Assembly (NCBI RefSeq): GCF_900102145.1
Contig: NZ_FNBC01000019.1
Span: 1-44,081, forward strand
Direction: 5' to 3'
Source of the DNA: Thermus arciformis
Lineage (GTDB): Bacteria; Deinococcota; Deinococci; Deinococcales; Thermaceae
Length of the DNA stretch: 44,081 bases
Numbering within the stretch: the first letter of the stretch is position 1; each line of letters opens with the position of its first letter. The position numbers and the translations under genes are program-made. Shown here piece by piece: positions 42 to 41,233 of the stretch. The notes under the pieces were generated by a model, which worked only from the letters and a program-made list of their open reading frames with translations, had not been told where the DNA came from and did no database searches.

Positions 42-88
42 AGCGGCCACTATTTTTTCAGATCCAGGGGATAGGTAGCAACTTGGGT
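1..88 (-). mobile_element. IS982-family insertion sequence, right-hand (5') end of a copy running off the window
   Basis: The segment ends at 74-88 with GGTAGCAACTTGGGT, the exact reverse complement of ACCCAAGTTGCTACC at 43749-43763, so both are the terminal inverted repeat of one IS type. The 41 bases at the window edge read on the minus strand as the first 13 codons of a transposase. A perfect 10-bp inverted repeat (18-27 with 39-48) contains that start codon. Assignment to IS982 rests on the better preserved C-terminal part at the other window end. Only the 5' end of this copy is visible. Confidence 0.75.
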
Positions 89-847
89 TACCACCTCCCC
101 TTTTGGCAGGCCCTCCCCGCCTGGACCCCGGGAAGCGCCCTCACCTGGTTCCCCTCCCCGTACCTGGGCCTTGCCCTCTGGATGGGGCTTCTCGCCGCCT
201 TGTACCTGGGGGTGAGCCAGGTGGAGCGGAGGAGGCGGGGAAGGCTCGAGCCCCTCCTCCGCCAAGAGGCCACCCACCCCCTCTTCGGCCCCTGGAGCCT
301 GGCCGCTGGGGCCTTTCTCCTGGCCCTGGGGAGCCTCCTTCTCCTCCTTCTCCAGGGCCGCCCCTGGGGGGTGACAGCGGCCTTCGCCCTCTGGGGGGGC
401 AAGCTGGCCCAGGCCTTGGGGGTCCCGGTGCTGGACTGGGCCCTCTTCCACAACCCCCCCTTCGCCGAGAGGCTGCAGGAGAGCGTGCTGAGGGACGCCA
501 CCAGCGTCACCAACTTCGGCCTCTTCCTGGGGGCCTTTCTGGGGGCGGCCCTAAGCGGAAGCCTACGTCTGAAGGACCTTCGCCGAATTCCCTGGAGCAC
601 CCACCTGGGCGTCTTCCTAGGCGGGGTGCTCATGGGCTATGGGGCCCGGCTTGCCGGGGGGTGCAACATCGGGGCCTACCTGGGGGGTACCGCCTCCTTC
701 AGCCTCCACGGCCCCCTCTGGGGAGTCTTCGCCCTATTGGGGACGGCCCTAGGGGTGCGGCTTAGGCCCGTCTGCCGCTTGGAGAACGAAGGGGGATCCG
801 CACCGCAGGCAGGTGGGAAGGAGGGCCTCGAGGCCCACAGGCTCTAA
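83..847 (+). pseudogene. YeeE/YedE-family (sulfur-compound transporter-like) membrane protein, 5' end removed by IS
   Basis: The frame is open from inside the IS terminal repeat to a TAA at 845-847 and encodes several hydrophobic segments. Near the C terminus it has YGARLAGGCNIGAYLGG, the conserved cysteine motif of YeeE/YedE proteins, a family that imports thiosulfate and related sulfur compounds. Family members are usually about 350-400 residues with two such halves; only about 250 remain and the first half is missing. No native start codon or ribosome-binding site is visible, and the apparent TTG start lies in IS sequence. The stop codon lies in the CTAAG that begins repeat copy A. Most likely a non-functional remnant. 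Confidence 0.75.
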
Positions 848-950
848 GTACCCCACCGCGGCTTTCGCCGCGGTGGGGGCCCCAAAAAGACCTTCCCAAG
901 CCTTATTTCGGGCCACCCGTGTTGCGGAATCAACGTGCAGCCGCTTAGCA
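844..950 (+). repeat. Structured repeat element, copy A (107 bp)
   Basis: Begins CTAAGTACCCC and ends CTTAGCA. A perfect 12-bp stem (851-862 with 867-878) with a TTTC loop is followed by GGCCCCAAAAAG. It aligns end to end with copy B at 9202-9309, although the inner 8 bp of the stem differ completely and still pair. The leading CTAAG supplies the stop codon of the upstream YeeE remnant. There is no T-run after the stem on the plus strand, so it is not a classical terminator in this orientation. Confidence 0.7.
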
Positions 951-8377: not shown

Positions 8378-9489
8378 TCCGCCTGGGCTACCCCTGCGAG
8401 AACCTCACCCTGAAGGCCACCACCAACCGCACCCTGCGCCTCGCCCACCTCACCGAGGAGCGGGTGCGGGAGAAGGTGGCGCAAAACCTAAAGGACCTGG
8501 AAAGGATCCTCCGCTTCAACGCCGAACACGGCTTCGCCCTCTTCCGCATCGGCCAGCACCTCATCCCCTTCGCCTCCCACCCCCTTTTCCCCTACGACTG
8601 GGAAGGAGCCCACAAGGAGGCCTTGGGGCGCCTCGGGGCCCTGGCCCGTGCCCTCGGCCAGCGGCTTTCCATGCACCCTGGGCCCTACGTGAACCCGGGA
8701 AGCCAAGACCCCAAGGTGGTGGAGCGCTCCCTAATGGAGCTCCGCTACTCCGCCCGGGTCCTCTCCCTCCTCGGGGCGGAAGACGGGGTCTTGGTCCTCC
8801 ACCTGGGCGGGGCCTACGGGGAGAAGGGGAGGGCCCTCCGCCGCTTCGTGGAAAACCTCCGGGGGGAGGGGGAGGTCCTGCGCTACCTGGCCCTGGAGAA
8901 CGACGAGAGGCTCTGGAACGTGGAGGAGGCCCTGGAGGCGGCGGAGGCCCTGGGGGTGCCCGTGGTGGTGGACACCCTTCACCACGCCCTAAACCCCGGG
9001 AGGCTCTCCCTGGAGGAGGCCTTCCGCCTCACCTTTCCCACCTGGCGGGGCCGGCCCAAGGTGCACCTGGCAAGCCAGGACCCTAAAAAGCGCCCCGGGG
9101 CCCACGCCTTCCGGGTAAGGAAGAGGGACTGGGAGCGCCTGCTTGCCGCCTTGCCCGCCCCGGCCGACGTCATGGTGGAGGCCAAGGGCAAGGAGCGGGG
9201 CCTAAGTACCCCGCTCTGGCTTGCGCCAGAGCGGGGGCCCCAAAAGAGCCTTCGCAAAGCCCTACCCCCGGCGTCCCATGTGGCGAAATCAAGGTGCGGG
9301 CACTTAGCAATGGAGGTACTGGGGCAAGACCTCCTCCGGGGCCTGGGGCGTGGGCAGGATTTCCTTAAGGGCCTCGGGGAAGGGGGCGGTGTTCCCCTCC
9401 TTGAGCATGAGGTACTGGTCCAGGGTGAGGGGGCTGAAGGGGAGGAGGGAAAGGAGGGGCACGAGGCGGTCCATGAGCCAAAGGGGTAG
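8374..9489 (+). CDS. uvsE: UV damage endonuclease UvsE (UVDE), with read-through C-terminal tail
   Basis: From the GTG at 8374 (overlapping the previous stop by 4) the first 276 codons encode a [14 protein letters not shown] near the start, [53 protein letters not shown] and [11 protein letters not shown], the conserved metal ligands and lysine of this TIM-barrel enzyme. It nicks DNA 5' of UV photoproducts. From codon 277 the frame enters repeat copy B and continues as unrelated sequence, then antisense to the epimerase gene, stopping at 9489 (371 codons). The native C terminus has probably been replaced; most catalytic residues lie before the repeat. Confidence 0.85.
9202..9309 (+). repeat. 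Structured repeat element, copy B (108 bp)
   Basis: Begins CTAAGTACCCC and ends CTTAGCA like copy A. A perfect 12-bp stem (9209-9220 with 9225-9236) with a TTGC loop is followed by GGCCCCAAAAGAGCC. Outside the stem it is about 70% identical to copy A by eye; the inner stem differs but stays paired. It lies where uvsE and the epimerase gene converge: uvsE reads through it, while the epimerase stop codon (TAA, minus strand 9306-9304) lies in its terminal CTTAGCA. Confidence 0.7.
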
Positions 9490-10167
9490 GGGCAGGAAGG
9501 GCTTCTTCCTCCCCAAGGCCTCCATCACCAGGAGGAGGAGCTCGCGGAAGGTGTACTCCTTAGGCCCCACCAGGTCGTAGGTGCCCTCGAGGCCCCGCTC
9601 CAAGGCCTCCACGAAGGCCTCCGCCACGTCCCCCACGTACACGGGCCGGAAAGGAAAGCTCCCGTCCCCGATGAGGGGGACGAAGGGAAGGGGGGCACAG
9701 ACGAGGCCCCTAAGGACCCCCCCGAAGAACCCGTCCCCGGGGCCGAAGATGAGGCTTGGGCGGAAGATGGCGTGGCTTAGGCCGCTTTGGCGCACCAGGG
9801 CCTCCCCTTCCGCCTTGGTCCGGTGGTAACGGCTTGGGGCGTCTGGCCTTGCCCCCAGGGCGGACATGTGGAGGAGGCGGCCCACCCCGGCCCGCTCCAT
9901 GGCCCTTAGGAGGTTCCTCACCCCCTCCACGTGCACCGCCTGAAAGGTCTGCTCCCCCTCTCGGATGAGGCCCGCCAGGTAGATGGCGGCCTCCGCCCCC
10001 TGGAGGTCCGGGGCTTCCTTGGCGATGTCCCCCTCTACCAGGACCGCCCCCTCGGGGAGGGGCCTGGACCTGCGGGCAAGGACCAGGGGGGTGTGGCCCC
10101 GCTTAAGGAGGGCCCGCACCACCTCCTGGCCCACGAACCCCGTCCCGCCCACGACGAAAACCCGCAT
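9304..10167 (-). CDS. NAD-dependent epimerase/dehydratase, NDUFA9-like
   Basis: 287 residues. [20 protein letters not shown] is the Rossmann motif of extended SDR proteins. [22 protein letters not shown] carries the Tyr-x3-Lys pair, and [12 protein letters not shown] is typical of the complex I NDUFA9-like/atypical SDR group. It starts 5 bases after the ldrP stop, so it is probably the third gene of the litR-ldrP operon and thus under light control. Its stop codon comes from the end of repeat copy B, so the C terminus may have been altered by that element. Substrate unknown. Confidence 0.8.
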
Positions 10168-24063: not shown

Positions 24064-24099
24064 GAAAAACACCCCGCCCTGGCTAAAGCCAGAGCGGGG
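24064..24099 (-). terminator. Rho-independent terminator after aioA, related to the structured repeat
   Basis: On the minus strand a 12-bp stem with one mismatch (24099-24088 with 24083-24072, loop of four) is followed by TGTTTTT. It shares CCCCGCTCTGGC...GCCAG.GCGGGG and the adjacent GGGG(A)CCCC with repeat copy B in reverse orientation, and the aioA stop codon lies in CTAAG just before it. Confidence 0.75.
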
Positions 24100-24112
24100 T
24101 CCCCAAGAGGGC

Positions 24113-26698
24113 TTAGTCAAACTTGTTCTGCTGCAAGACGCTCGCCGTCTGCTGCACGGAGGGGATGGCCCCCGCCACCTTGCGGAGGTTGGCCCGGGTG
24201 CCCTTGTACCAGGGGATGGTGGTCTTGGGGTCGGTGTAGCCGGAGACCAGGGAGTTGGAGGTGCCCCGCCAGTGGTACATCACCAGGAAGAGGGTGCCCG
24301 GCTTCACCGCGTCCGTGACGTAGACGAGGAAGGTGCCGTTCCCCTCCTCGTTGTAGACCTCCACCAGGTCCCCGGACTGGAGGCCGAGGCGCCTGGCGTC
24401 CTCGGGGTTCACCTCCACGTAGGGGAGGGGGAGGGCCAGGGCCTTCTCGGGGAGGCGGCGGTCGTGGTAGGCGGTCTGCCAGATGGTCTGGGCCCGGCCG
24501 GTGGTGACCCAGAAGGGGTACTGCCGGGCCTTCTCCCCCTCGAGGTACTTGGCCACCTCCGCGGGGTAGCCTTCCCAGTCGTCGGTGCCGTACCACTTGA
24601 ACTTGCCGTCAGGGGTGCCGAACTTGTAGGTGTAGCGCCGGACCGTGCCCACGAGCTTCCCCGTCTTGGGGTCGCGGCGCACGGGGGTCTGGATGCCCTT
24701 CTGGCCCAGCTCCTTCAGGAGCTTGTAGGTGACCCCCTTGTAGTTCTCGGCCTCCAGCTTGGCCTCGTCCTCCTCGCTCACGCGGTTGTCGCCGAACTCC
24801 TCGGCCCCGGCGAGGAAGACGTCCTCGTCCGTCTTCCAGTCCTTGCCGAACTCAAACTTGGCGGCCTCCTGGGCCTTGCCCTCGGCCCGGTAGAGCTCGG
24901 CGATCCGCAAGCCCACCAGCTTGAAGATCTCCCAGTCGGGCTTGGCCTCCCCGGGCGGGTCCATGAACTTCTCGTAGAGGCGGAGGAGGCGGCTGTTGCA
25001 GTTGATGGAGGTGTCGTTGGCCTCGCCCCAGGCGGCGGCGGGGAGGATGAGGTGGGCGTCCCGGGCCGTCTCGGTCATGTAGATGTCCTGGACCACCATG
25101 AAGAGGGCGTCGGGGTCCTGGTAGAGGACGTCCAGGATCTTCTGGGCCCGCTCCCGTATGGTCCCGGGCTCGCCCCCGGCGCCGAGGGCCTTGGTGAGCT
25201 TCTCCGTGCGCTCGTGGATGCGCTTGCGGAAGACCTGGTTGTTGGGGGTGGAGAGGTAGGGGTCGTTGGCGATGACCCAGTAGAACTTGCCCTTGCCGTC
25301 GGTGAGGAACTTGTCCACGTTGACGGGGGGCCCGCCCCGGTAGATGGAGCCCGGGGTGGGGGCGGGGGGACGGACGTACCCCTCCTGGTGCCCGCCCTGG
25401 CGGCCGCAGCCCGTGCCGGGCCGGCCGATGTTGTGGGTGAGGACGGCGAGCTGGACGATGGCCGCTACCTGGTCGTAGTTCTTCATGTTCCAGATGATGC
25501 CCTTCTCGTAGATGGTGAGGGTGCGGCGCTTGAACCGGCCCGCCTTGGGCTTGGCGATCCAGTCGGCGGCCTTCTCAATCTCCGCCCGGGAAACCCCGGT
25601 GATGCGCTCCGCCTGGGCCATGAACTCGGCGTAGGGCACGGAGAGCTTAAGGCTTTTCGCCTTGTACTCCTCAAAGAGGGCCATGTCCGTGCGGGCCTGG
25701 AGGTAGGCCATGTCGTAGTAGCCCTTCTCCCAGACCGCCCGGGCGATGGCGTTGGCCAGGATGTAGTCCGTGCCCAGGTTGGGCCGGAGGAGCATCACCC
25801 GGTCCGGGGCCACCTGGGCGGCCACGGTGTAGGAGCTGGTCTTCCTGGGGTCAATGACGATGAGGTAGCCGGGCTCGGCGGGCTCGCCCCGTTCAAAGAC
25901 CTGCTGCTTCTCCGCCACCGTGGCCCCCTGGATGTTGGGGAGCATGTGCTCCACGTAGAACACCGTGGCCGTCTCGTAGGGGTTCGCCCCCCAGAGGACG
26001 ATGGTGTCGGCGAGCCGGGCGTCCTCGTAGGTGTAGTTCAGCTCGTGGACGCCCCTCTCCCGGCTTCCCCAGACCTCGGAGTTGTAGGCGGGGCGGTTGT
26101 GGATGGCGATGTGCTTCACGGAGAGGGCGGCGAAGAAGAGCTTCCCGGCGCCATAGTTGTCCTCAAAGCCCTGGCCCGAACCCCCGTGGTCGTAGCACTT
26201 CACGGCGATGTTGTCGTCGTTGCCGTCCCGGTCCCGGATGCCCTTGATGAGGAGGCCCATGAGGGTCAGGGCGTCCTGCCAGGTGATGGCCTGGAACTGG
26301 TCGCCCACCCTGAGGAGGGGGTAGGTGAGCCGGTCCTGGGTGCCCCGGTCTAGGCTCCAGACGGTGAGGGCGTTGGTGCCGCCGCGGATGGAGTAGTCGC
26401 CCCGGTTGATGGGGCTGTCCTTGGCGGGGACGATGACCACGTGGTACTGCTGGCCGTCCCTGCCCACGGTGACGGCGTGCATGGTCTCCGTGTAGCTCTG
26501 GCCGGCCAGGGGGGGCTGGGGCGTGGAGAGGTCCAGGCCGAAGGCGTTCTGGGAAGGCTTAGGCCCGCCCTGCTCGCCCACCGGCCAGACGTACACCTTA
26601 TAGCCGCACCCCACGTTGCAGTACTGGCAGACGGTGTTGTAAACCTTGGCGTTCTTGGGTGGGATAGGAAGCTGGTCCCTACGAGGAATGAGCGCCAT
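24113..26698 (-). CDS. aioA: Arsenite oxidase large subunit AioA (molybdopterin)
   Basis: 861 residues, the length of arsenite oxidase catalytic subunits. CQYCNVGCGYKVYVWP near the start gives Cys24, Cys27 and Cys31 for the [3Fe-4S] cluster, closely matching the AioA form CxxCxVGCGYxVY. Later molybdopterin-binding blocks include GPPVNVDKF, VQDIYMTETARDAHLILPAA and WVTTGRAQTIWQTAYHD. It oxidises arsenite to arsenate and passes electrons to the Rieske subunit. No own signal peptide; it would be exported with AioB by the TAT pathway. Strong ribosome-binding site; 12 bases after the aioB stop. Confidence 0.92.
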   Translation of the reverse strand: MALIPRRDQLPIPPKNAKVYNTVCQYCNVGCGYKVYVWPVGEQGGPKPSQNAFGLDLSTPQPPLAGQSYTETMHAVTVGRDGQQYHVVIVPAKDSPINRGDYSIRGGTNALTVWSLDRGTQDRLTYPLLRVGDQFQAITWQDALTLMGLLIKGIRDRDGNDDNIAVKCYDHGGSGQGFEDNYGAGKLFFAALSVKHIAIHNRPAYNSEVWGSRERGVHELNYTYEDARLADTIVLWGANPYETATVFYVEHMLPNIQGATVAEKQQVFERGEPAEPGYLIVIDPRKTSSYTVAAQVAPDRVMLLRPNLGTDYILANAIARAVWEKGYYDMAYLQARTDMALFEEYKAKSLKLSVPYAEFMAQAERITGVSRAEIEKAADWIAKPKAGRFKRRTLTIYEKGIIWNMKNYDQVAAIVQLAVLTHNIGRPGTGCGRQGGHQEGYVRPPAPTPGSIYRGGPPVNVDKFLTDGKGKFYWVIANDPYLSTPNNQVFRKRIHERTEKLTKALGAGGEPGTIRERAQKILDVLYQDPDALFMVVQDIYMTETARDAHLILPAAAWGEANDTSINCNSRLLRLYEKFMDPPGEAKPDWEIFKLVGLRIAELYRAEGKAQEAAKFEFGKDWKTDEDVFLAGAEEFGDNRVSEEDEAKLEAENYKGVTYKLLKELGQKGIQTPVRRDPKTGKLVGTVRRYTYKFGTPDGKFKWYGTDDWEGYPAEVAKYLEGEKARQYPFWVTTGRAQTIWQTAYHDRRLPEKALALPLPYVEVNPEDARRLGLQSGDLVEVYNEEGNGTFLVYVTDAVKPGTLFLVMYHWRGTSNSLVSGYTDPKTTIPWYKGTRANLRKVAGAIPSVQQTASVLQQNKFD

Positions 26699-34610: not shown

Positions 34611-34676
34611 GCCCGAAGAAGGCTAGGCCTTTTCGGGGCCCCCATGCGGGCTTGGGCCCGCATGGGGTGCTCTTAG
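34611..34676 (-). repeat. Structured repeat element, shortened copy C
   Basis: On the minus strand it reads CTAAG...ACCCC, a perfect 12-bp stem (34667-34656 with 34651-34640) with a four-base loop, GGGGGCCCC, GAAAAGG, then GCCTTCTTCGGGC. The same order of parts is found in copy A (GCCTTATTTCGGGC). The stem sequence differs from copies A and B. The TAA stop of the FabG-like gene lies in its CTAAG. It lacks the final CTTAGCA. Confidence 0.55.
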
Positions 34677-35410
34677 GCCGAGGCCGCCCCAATGGTCCTC
34701 CCCCCGTCCACGAAGAGGACCTGGCCGGTGATGAAGCTGGACTCGTCGGAGACCAGAAAAAGGGCGGCGTAGGCCACCTCCAAGGGCTTCCCCGCCCGGC
34801 CCAAAGGCGTGGCGGCGATGGCCTTCTCCCGCACCTTCTCCGGCACCTTGGCCGTCATCCGCGTCTCAATGAACCCCGGGGCCAGGGCGTTCACCCGGAT
34901 CCCCCACCGCCCAAGCTCCAGGGCCAAGGTCCGGGTAAGCCCCACCACCCCCGCCTTGGAGGCGGCGTAGTTCGCCTGCCCCAGGTTCCCGAGGTACACC
35001 CGGCTTGCGGTGAGGACGATGCTCCCAGGGTTTTTCTCCCGCATGGCCTCCGAGGCCGCCTTGGCCACCAGGAAGCTTCCCGTGAGGTTCACCCGGAGGA
35101 CGAGCTCCCAGTCCTCCAGGGGCATCTTCCAGTGGAAGTTGTCCCGGGTGATCCCGGCGTAGTGCACCACCCCGTCCAGCCGGCCCAGGTGGGCCAGGGC
35201 CTCGGCAAACCCCCGCTCCACGGAGGCGGGGTCGGCCACGTCCATCACCACCGGGTGGGCCCCCACGCTTTCCGCCGCCTCCCTTAAGGGGCCTTCTTCC
35301 ACGTCGCAGGCCACGAGCCTCGCCCCTTCCTTGGCGAAGAGCTCCAGCGTGGCCCGGCCAATGCCGTGGGCCGCCCCCGTGATGAGCACCGCCTTGTCCT
35401 TGAGCCGCAT
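34673..35410 (-). CDS. FabG-like 3-oxoacyl-ACP/acyl-CoA reductase (SDR)
   Basis: 245 residues from the ATG at 35410. Classical SDR: AVLITGAAHGIGRATLELFA (cofactor motif), VHYAGIT (NAG-like), SIVLTASRVYLGNLGQANYA with the catalytic Ser-Tyr-Lys (YAASKAG), and APGFIETRMT. It reduces a 3-ketoacyl thioester with NAD(P)H or runs in reverse during fatty acid breakdown. The upstream PfmR-type palindrome suggests control together with fatty-acid and phenylacetate genes. Its stop codon lies in repeat copy C. Confidence 0.85.
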   Translation of the reverse strand: MRLKDKAVLITGAAHGIGRATLELFAKEGARLVACDVEEGPLREAAESVGAHPVVMDVADPASVERGFAEALAHLGRLDGVVHYAGITRDNFHWKMPLEDWELVLRVNLTGSFLVAKAASEAMREKNPGSIVLTASRVYLGNLGQANYAASKAGVVGLTRTLALELGRWGIRVNALAPGFIETRMTAKVPEKVREKAIAATPLGRAGKPLEVAYAALFLVSDESSFITGQVLFVDGGRTIGAASA

Positions 35411-35426
35411 CCCGCACCCCCTAGAC

Positions 35427-35442
35427 GACCAACCGGTCGGTA
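35427..35442 (-). promoter_or_regulatory. PfmR-like TetR-family operator
   Basis: On the minus strand TACCGACCGGTTGGTC, 17 bases before the FabG-like ATG. It fits the consensus TACCGACCGNTNGGTN that I recall for T. thermophilus PfmR, a TetR-family repressor of fatty acid and phenylacetate metabolism released by long-chain acyl-CoA. The consensus is quoted from memory. Confidence 0.6.
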
Positions 35443-35450
35443 AGCCCACC

Positions 35451-38514: not shown

Positions 38515-38690
38515 CGGGGAAGGGCGGACGGCCCTGGCAGGCATTCGGGCTTCCGGCCTACGACGAAGGGCGTGACGCGCGACCGGTTACCGTTGCGGGA
38601 CAGCGCCGGACTTGCACCGGACTTCCCCACTTTAAGCCTGGACTACGCGCCCAGGCACCAGGGCAACGGGACCTGGCTTTGGGGCCCTAG
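38515..38690 (-). ncRNA. Cobalamin (B12) riboswitch aptamer
   Basis: The minus strand carries the core GGTGCAAGTCCGGCGCTG (from 38618) continuing into TCCCGCAACGGTAACCGG, near-identical to the canonical cobalamin riboswitch core. The B12 box GAAGCCCGAATGCCTGCC ends at 38536. It precedes btuFCD and a terminator. Outer ends are estimated from the paired arms (GGTGCCTGGGC near the 5' side) and may be off by 10-20 bases. Confidence 0.92.
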
Positions 38691-39990: not shown

Positions 39991-41182
39991 CGCCCTGGCC
40001 CAGACGGGCAAGCTGGAGATCTTCTCCTGGTGGGCGGGGGACGAGGGGCCGGCCCTCGAGGCCCTCATCAAGCTCTACAAGCAGAAGTACCCCGGGGTGG
40101 AGGTCATCAACGCCACCGTGACCGGGGGGGCCGGGGTCAACGCCAAGGCGGTCCTGAAGACCCGCATGCTGGGCGGCGACCCGCCGGACACCTTCCAGGT
40201 GCACGCGGGGCAGGAACTCATCGGCACCTGGGTGGTGGCGGACCGGATGGAGGACCTCACGGGGCTCTTCCGTCAGGAGGGCTGGCTGCAGGCCTTCCCC
40301 AAGGGACTCATTGACCTCCTCTCCTACAAGGGCGGCATCTGGAGCGTCCCCGTGAACATCCACCGCTCCAACGTCATGTGGTACATCCCCGCCAAGCTCC
40401 GGGAGTGGGGCGTAACACCCCCCAAGACCTGGGCCGAGTTCCTGGCCACCTGCGAAACCCTGAAGAAGAAGGGCCTCCAGGCTCCTTTGGCCCTGGGGGA
40501 GAACTGGACCCAGCAGCACCTCTGGGAGAGCGTGGCCCTGGCCACCTTGGGGCCGGAGGGCTGGAACAACCTCTGGAACGGGAAGCTGAAGTTCACCGAC
40601 CCCAAGGCGGTGGCCGTTTGGGAAACCTTTGGTAAGGTCCTGGACTGCGCCAACAAGGACGCCGCCGGCCTCTCCTGGCAGCAGGCCGTGGACCGGGTGG
40701 TGCAGGGCCAGGCCGCCTTCAACATCATGGGCGACTGGGCCGCGGGCTATATGGCCACCACCTTGAAGCTCCGCCCGGGCACGGACTTCGCCTGGGCCCC
40801 TTCCCCCGGCACCTCCGGGGTCTTCATGATGCTCTCCGACTCCTTCGGCCTGCCCAAGGGGGCCAAGAACCGCCAGAACGCCCTTAACTGGCTTAAGCTC
40901 GTGGGCTCCAAGGAGGGGCAGGACACCTTCAACCCCCTCAAAGGCTCCATCGCCGCCCGGCTGGACTCCGACCCCGCCAAGTACAACGCCTACGGCCAGT
41001 CGGCCATGAAGGACTGGAAGTCCAACCGCATCGTGGGCTCCCTGGTCCACGGGGCGGTGGCGCCCGAGAGCTTCATGAGCCAGTTTGGCACCGTGATGGA
41101 AATCTTCCTGCAGAGCAGGAACCCCCAAGCCGCCGCGAACGCCGCCCAGGCCATCGCGAGCCAGGTGGGCTTAGGCCGCTAA
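39947..41182 (+). CDS. Glucose/galactose-type ABC transporter substrate-binding protein
   Basis: 411 residues with signal peptide [19 protein letters not shown]; the ATG at 39947 has GGAGGT upstream, while an in-frame ATG at 39935 lacks one. [66 protein letters not shown] and [12 protein letters not shown] are nearly the same as the T. thermophilus glucose/galactose-binding protein of known structure (from memory), so glucose is the likely ligand. A strong terminator hairpin follows, which would keep this protein more abundant than the permeases. Confidence 0.88.
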
Positions 41183-41190
41183 GCGCGTGG

Positions 41191-41223
41191 AACCCGTGGG
41201 GGCTAAAGCCCCCACGGGTTTTT
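41191..41223 (+). terminator. Hairpin with T-run between binding protein and permease genes
   Basis: A perfect 13-bp stem, AACCCGTGGGGGC (41191-41203) with GCCCCCACGGGTT (41208-41220), loop TAAA, followed by TTT. It is probably a partial terminator or mRNA stabiliser that gives more binding protein than permease. Confidence 0.8.
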
Positions 41224-41233
41224 CGGAGGAAAC

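Follow-up and report, generated by a model that had tools for sequence, protein, structure and literature searches.

Does a structured repeat found at gene ends in Thermus act as an RNA element at the 3' ends of messages, or is it a mobile element? The question is raised by a 44,081-nucleotide stretch of Thermus arciformis, here called the window, which is contig C65 of a genome (G000) of 2.44 Mb in 88 contigs. A preliminary description of the window had entertained both possibilities. We conclude that the repeat is a MITE of about 101 bp that is probably moved in trans by a putative Thermus DDE transposase of the IS630 family, a reading based on sequence comparison to which we assign a probability of roughly 0.85.

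Copies and relatives of the repeat

Two full-length copies lie in the window. Each is non-coding and about 106 bases long (about 101 bp without the duplicated TA), and is made up of CTAAGTACCCC, a 12-bp stem, a 4-nt loop, GGGGGCCCCAAAA, a tail and CTTAG. The features that bear on the repeat are:

844-948, plus strand: copy 1, subtype A, full element (covariance model, 117 bits)
845-846 and 946-947, plus strand: duplicated TA of copy 1
851-878, plus strand: hairpin of copy 1, CCCCACCGCGGC-TTTC-GCCGCGGTGGGG (folding; pairs kept across 30 variants)
879-889, plus strand: conserved GCCCCAAAAAG, 3' of the copy 1 hairpin (invariant or nearly so in alignments)
919-947, plus strand: right end of copy 1 (23/30 bases as in the 3' end of an IS630 transposase gene on contig C76 of G000)
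9202-9307, plus strand: copy 2, subtype B, full element (covariance model, 129 bits)
9203-9204 and 9305-9306, plus strand: duplicated TA of copy 2
9209-9236, plus strand: hairpin of copy 2, CCCCGCTCTGGC-TTGC-GCCAGAGCGGGG (folding; pairs kept across variants)
24071-24100, minus strand: intrinsic terminator, no repeat copy (terminator scan; 3' of the gene for the arsenite oxidase large subunit)
34631-34674, minus strand: hairpin-only relative, ACCCCATGCGGGC stem and GGGGGCCCCGAAAA (weak model match, 43 bits, no tail)

The two full copies, previously placed at 844-950 and 9202-9309, are real, but their ends lie two bases earlier, at 948 and 9307. What had been taken for a shortened copy at 34611-34676 on the minus strand does share the hairpin and GGGGGCCCCGAAAA, but its tail is not recognisable; this hairpin, which adjoins the stop of an SDR/FabG-like gene (34673-35449, minus strand), is a solo module. 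The supposed terminator-like relative at 24064-24115 proved to be an ordinary minus-strand intrinsic terminator, a stem followed by GTTTTTCCCG, and it belongs to the arsenite oxidase large subunit gene that it directly follows (24113-26698, minus strand; TIGR02693 score 1420). An additional hairpin, ACCCGTGGGGGCTTTAGCCCCCACGGGT, at 41179-41226 on the minus strand scores 27 bits with the model; it is probably unrelated to the repeat and is perhaps a terminator. When the window was scanned against Rfam at the gathering threshold, the sole match was a cobalamin riboswitch (RF00174, 58.7 bits) at 38519-38677 on the minus strand, and the repeat was unmatched.

The repeat is abundant beyond the window. 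A whole-genome pattern search of G000 for ACCCC-N18..34-GGGGNCCCCRAAA gave 46 places, far more than chance would produce, against one for the reversed control, and both ends could be located for 43 copies; the two sets overlap without being identical and together provide a conservative count. A covariance model search of Thermus genomes, as suggested in the preliminary description, was run with a model built from 36 copies. Matches came from 23 of the 27 genomes, in many of them numbering 20-140, and the remaining four gave none. These per-genome counts, including the 131 for G000, take in hairpin-only and opposite-strand matches. The tail after the A-run, on whose conservation the preliminary description had staked its proposal, is conserved in further copies. 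Most copies in G000 belong to subtype A (stem CCCCACCGCGGC) or subtype B (CCCCGCTCTGGC), with a few others, and these subtypes have homologous tails terminating in GCACTTAG or CCACTTAG. Other Thermus species have variants of their own; one, with stem CCCCGTCGTGGC and a different tail, is found in six genomes (G022, G008, G025, G007, G023 and G003). The same architecture occurs in G044, from another family of Thermales. The repeat is also located in plasmids of T. thermophilus and T. aquaticus; the element was not found at 14 loci around uvsE, named Thermus species among them. We found no earlier description of such a Thermus repeat in the open-access literature searched. T. thermophilus is a model organism, yet the repeat is marked in none of the three annotated records examined.

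Insertion at TA and placement at gene ends

With the element removed, the flanks of copies were spliced together and the resulting joins were searched for in the 27 Thermus genomes. Empty sites in relatives, which the preliminary description had thought worth seeking, were found. An occupied site reads CTA-element-TAG, and the orthologous empty site in other Thermus species is a single intact CTAG or, in some instances, CTAA. Such sites were identified in G016 (CCCCGGCCTAGGGGCGGCC, which is the exact predicted join, and CACGCCGGTCTAGGCCGGCGTG), G009 (CCGGCCTAAGGCCGGC), G013 (GACTAGGG) and G019 (GACTAGGCC). With two TA dinucleotides at each occupied site and one at each empty site, insertion is accompanied by a 2-bp TA duplication. 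Moreover, neighbouring copies share one TA, GGGGTACTTAAGTACCCC, both in tandem (contig C66) and head to head (C43 and C49), and the context YTAR surrounds 33 of 37 insertions as against 149 of the 701 TA dinucleotides of the window. The repeat is therefore a mobile element and not primarily an RNA element, and the earlier reading of it as a small non-autonomous element is borne out by the empty sites with their TA duplication. Short, non-coding and dispersed in many copies with fixed ends and a target-site duplication, it has the properties of a MITE.

The target also accounts for the gene-end location. CTAG carries a TAG stop on each strand, and the first base of the element beyond the duplicated TA is A; insertion therefore converts TAG to TAA in place and is tolerated at gene ends, those of convergent genes included. 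Gene-end statistics were drawn up with a simple codon-position model for which eight window ORFs served as the training set. Among the 43 copies, the stop of the adjoining frame fell exactly at the junction at the left end in 16 and at the right end in 11, and on both sides in five. Neither orientation of the element with respect to the gene end is favoured (16 versus 11, p = 0.44). Independent annotation of two T. thermophilus plasmids, pTF19b and pTMY, agrees, with a CDS that terminates 3 bp into the element. Insertions that fall within genes would presumably be removed by selection. The repeat thus accounts for odd gene ends, in the form of TAG-to-TAA changes and altered C-termini. The genes that adjoin the window copies are:

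83-847, plus strand: YeeE/TsuA-like sulphur transport gene, its stop TAA supplied by copy 1 at the element's left end
8386-9201, plus strand: uvsE (UV endonuclease) frame, broken by copy 2 close to its 3' end and reading through the element to 9489
9304-10167, minus strand: SDR/epimerase gene, its stop TAA being the right end of copy 2

The claim that a neighbouring stop always falls inside CTAAG does not hold at copy 2. The uvsE frame passes through CTA AGT here without a stop and continues to 9489, and it is the convergent SDR/epimerase gene whose stop is supplied, by TTA (9304-9306) at the right end of the element.

Comparison with relatives reveals that gene order has changed between the two copies. 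Seven Thermus relatives have the YeeE-like gene next to the SDR gene, the two converging and, in six of the seven, joined by CTAGCA. The 8.3-kb segment 949-9201 with uvsE inside it is missing between them, and this junction counts as a further empty site in all seven; in several of these relatives, the coordinates put uvsE upstream of the YeeE-like gene. The ancestral YeeE-SDR site is split in the window, its left flank lying at copy 1 and its right flank at copy 2, 8.3 kb apart. The two copies have the same orientation, and the copy 1 junction is also occupied in G026. In the simplest reading, two direct copies would have recombined or a composite unit would have transposed. The repeat is thus dispersed homology at a place where gene order has changed, and the presence or absence of copies could serve as a marker of Thermus strains.

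The hairpin module

The compensatory changes in the stem described earlier are real. Across 30 distinct variants, 97.8% of pair cells are kept, and both sides have changed in six of the 12 pairs. Covariation scores 0.386, compared with 0.150 for shuffles, and the signal is lost once the partner is slid along. The inner 8 bp had been said to differ completely; about 5 bp of them do vary, but the loop-proximal GGC/GCC is kept in nearly all variants. Within subtypes, deviations from the consensus occur at 4 of 480 inner-stem positions, a count which leaves out three B copies with a replaced stem, and at 83 of 1929 tail positions (Fisher p = 5e-5). The stem thus changes less than the tail, which indicates that the shape of the hairpin is kept. 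The loop is present in both orientations (TTTC/GAAA and TTGC/GCAA), one copy (L062) carries an A stem on a B tail, and much of the stem is gone from several copies.

Inversion, template switching and recombination of palindromes can alter both arms jointly and repair mismatches. Since these processes mimic it, covariation alone is no proof of selection on RNA, a caution that extends to stem covariation in repeats generally. The compensatory changes could have their source in a mobile lineage that carries a palindrome and undergoes hairpin inversion and swapping.

These observations bear on whether the repeat might instead be a dedicated 3'-end RNA element or terminator, whose place at gene ends is maintained because selection acts on its RNA structure. 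Such an element would explain a perfect 12-bp stem that covaries and evolves more slowly than the tail, as well as the frequent placement at stop codons. It would account neither for the target-site duplication and empty sites nor for the loop inversions and stem swaps, and the repeat is absent from four Thermus genomes. In the terminator scan, moreover, the main hairpin of both full copies lacked a U-tract (a T-run after the stem), which, with the unbiased orientation, speaks against this half of the preliminary description. We regard it as very improbable, although inserted copies may have a secondary effect on mRNA ends. Nor does the suggested switch of GGGGG between the CCCC runs on either side seem feasible; GGGGG directly abuts the following CCCC with no loop between them, which would make a local switch sterically unreasonable.

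A second high-copy family, with ends TGATACC...GGTATCA, is present in G000 (loci L253-L275, and for example L266, L265 and L038). It has the hairpin module (stem CCCCATGCTGGC) and GGGGGCCCC of the first family and a different tail. First-family copies appear to be nested inside it (L004 and L040), and G071, from another genus of the same taxonomic family, has mostly TGATACC-type repeats. The occurrence of the same hairpin module between other ends suggests that the module is portable. We would go further only tentatively, and with considerable doubt, in proposing that the hairpin and the conserved GGGGGCCCCARAA form a portable, structure-selected module that replaces most of one terminal repeat and is common to two MITE families (TAAGT...ACTTA and TGATACC...GGTATCA), its shape but not its sequence being kept across Thermales through a role of DNA structure in transposition or through harmless insertion beside genes.

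The candidate transposase and known systems

IS630-type transposase domains (PF13358) were matched in 17 of the 27 Thermus genomes, many of the matches being fragmentary. Aligned Thermus IS630 copies have the ends TA-AGTGCC...GGCACT-TA, their terminal bases being almost those of the repeat, and in G026 one such element directly abuts a repeat copy, with a TA common to both. The similarity is most extensive at the right end, where the last 30 bp or so of the repeat resemble the 3' end found in a single subgroup of the resident IS630 elements, both ending in CACT-TA. This subgroup, found in G000 (contig C76), G022 (several copies), G023 and G003, has the ends AAAGTCTATGC...ACT-TA, and the C-terminus of its transposase, SLCxxT-stop, is encoded at the end of the element. 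In each of these four genomes the right end of the repeat matches that of the same-species subgroup with a shuffle p of about 0.001-0.002; against two other IS630 groups, the match was mostly no better than in shuffles. Group X (G026, G025, G002 and G017) was rejected as a partner, its right-end fit lying mostly at shuffle level. A further IS630-like element in G026 (loci L143-L146; about 1.14 kb, ends ATAAGAACTCCCCC...GGGGGATTTCTTAT) was probably active recently, its copies being about 99% alike.

The left end is less informative. Compared by eye with IS630 left ends (loci L184, L188 and L189), it has only AGTRCCC in common with them; read inward, the ends of the repeat are AGTRCCC on the left and AGTGCCC or AGTGGCT on the right. 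A left terminal repeat hidden in subtype B and split by the hairpin, proposed by eye, fails for the G022 variant. No insertion sequence with both element-like ends was found, and the C76 partner in G000 is without a recognisable left end. The TA-target MITE might accordingly be moved by some other element, perhaps extinct in G000, with the right-end likeness to IS630 convergent or a relic. The left end without an extended IS630 match would fit such a history, as would several copy-rich genomes, such as G009, G020 and G023, that have many element matches and little or no intact matching transposase. Against this, the right-end likeness recurs in several species with one IS630 subgroup and is not seen with the other groups, and Thermus IS630 elements have the same terminal bases and the TA target. 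We consider a different mover unlikely.

A third possibility is an element of the IS200/IS605 or REP/RAYT type, which a Y1 transposase would recognise by its hairpin and move in single-stranded form. The hairpin beside one end and the head-to-head pairs, which recall REP arrangements, are what it has in its favour. However, it would leave no duplication where 2 bp are found, the right end is IS630-like, and Y1 transposases (PF01797) are absent in 22 of the 27 Thermus genomes, including G000 and most of the copy-rich genomes, G005, G018, G022 and G026 among them. The IS200/IS605 kinship raised in the preliminary description founders on these points, and we give it almost no credence.

With an IS630-family enzyme as the putative mover, the transposase would bind both ends of the repeat, excise it and insert it at TA. 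The left-end hairpin would be needed in transposition or would render insertions harmless, and the mobile lineage would keep its shape while the sequence drifts and swaps between subtypes.

Several known systems invite comparison. The Thermus IS630 elements themselves resemble the repeat in their TA duplication and, in the copies examined, in their terminal TAAGTGCC...GGCACTTA; they differ in their length of about 1.06 kb, their transposase gene and a left end without a hairpin. One example from Thermus, ISTth6, is listed as an IS630-family member with a 2-bp direct repeat (table, PMC6352166). REP/BIME sequences with RAYT transposases (PMC2817692) are likewise high-copy extragenic palindromes, sometimes head to head, but the Thermus repeat has a TA duplication, an IS630-like end and a genome without a Y1 transposase. 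The pneumococcal SPRITE and BOX repeats (PMC3049150) share with it hairpins near gene 3' ends or supplying stops, and nested insertions; SPRITE, however, resembles a rho-independent terminator (PMC3049150), whereas the Thermus repeat has no T-run after the stem. RUP of pneumococcus is a 107-bp MITE of about 100 copies, proposed to be mobilised by IS630-Spn1 (PMC2229807, PMC3049150). By description, RUP and the Thermus repeat have in common a TA-containing target, at least one end like that of a resident IS630 and a mostly intergenic location (PMC2229807, PMC3049150). The Thermus repeat departs from RUP in its perfect, conserved hairpin module with GGGGGCCCC at one end and in an extended IS630 likeness confined to the right end. 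By analogy, its closest known kind is that of the TA-target MITEs such as pneumococcal RUP, with the conserved hairpin module at one end as its unusual feature.
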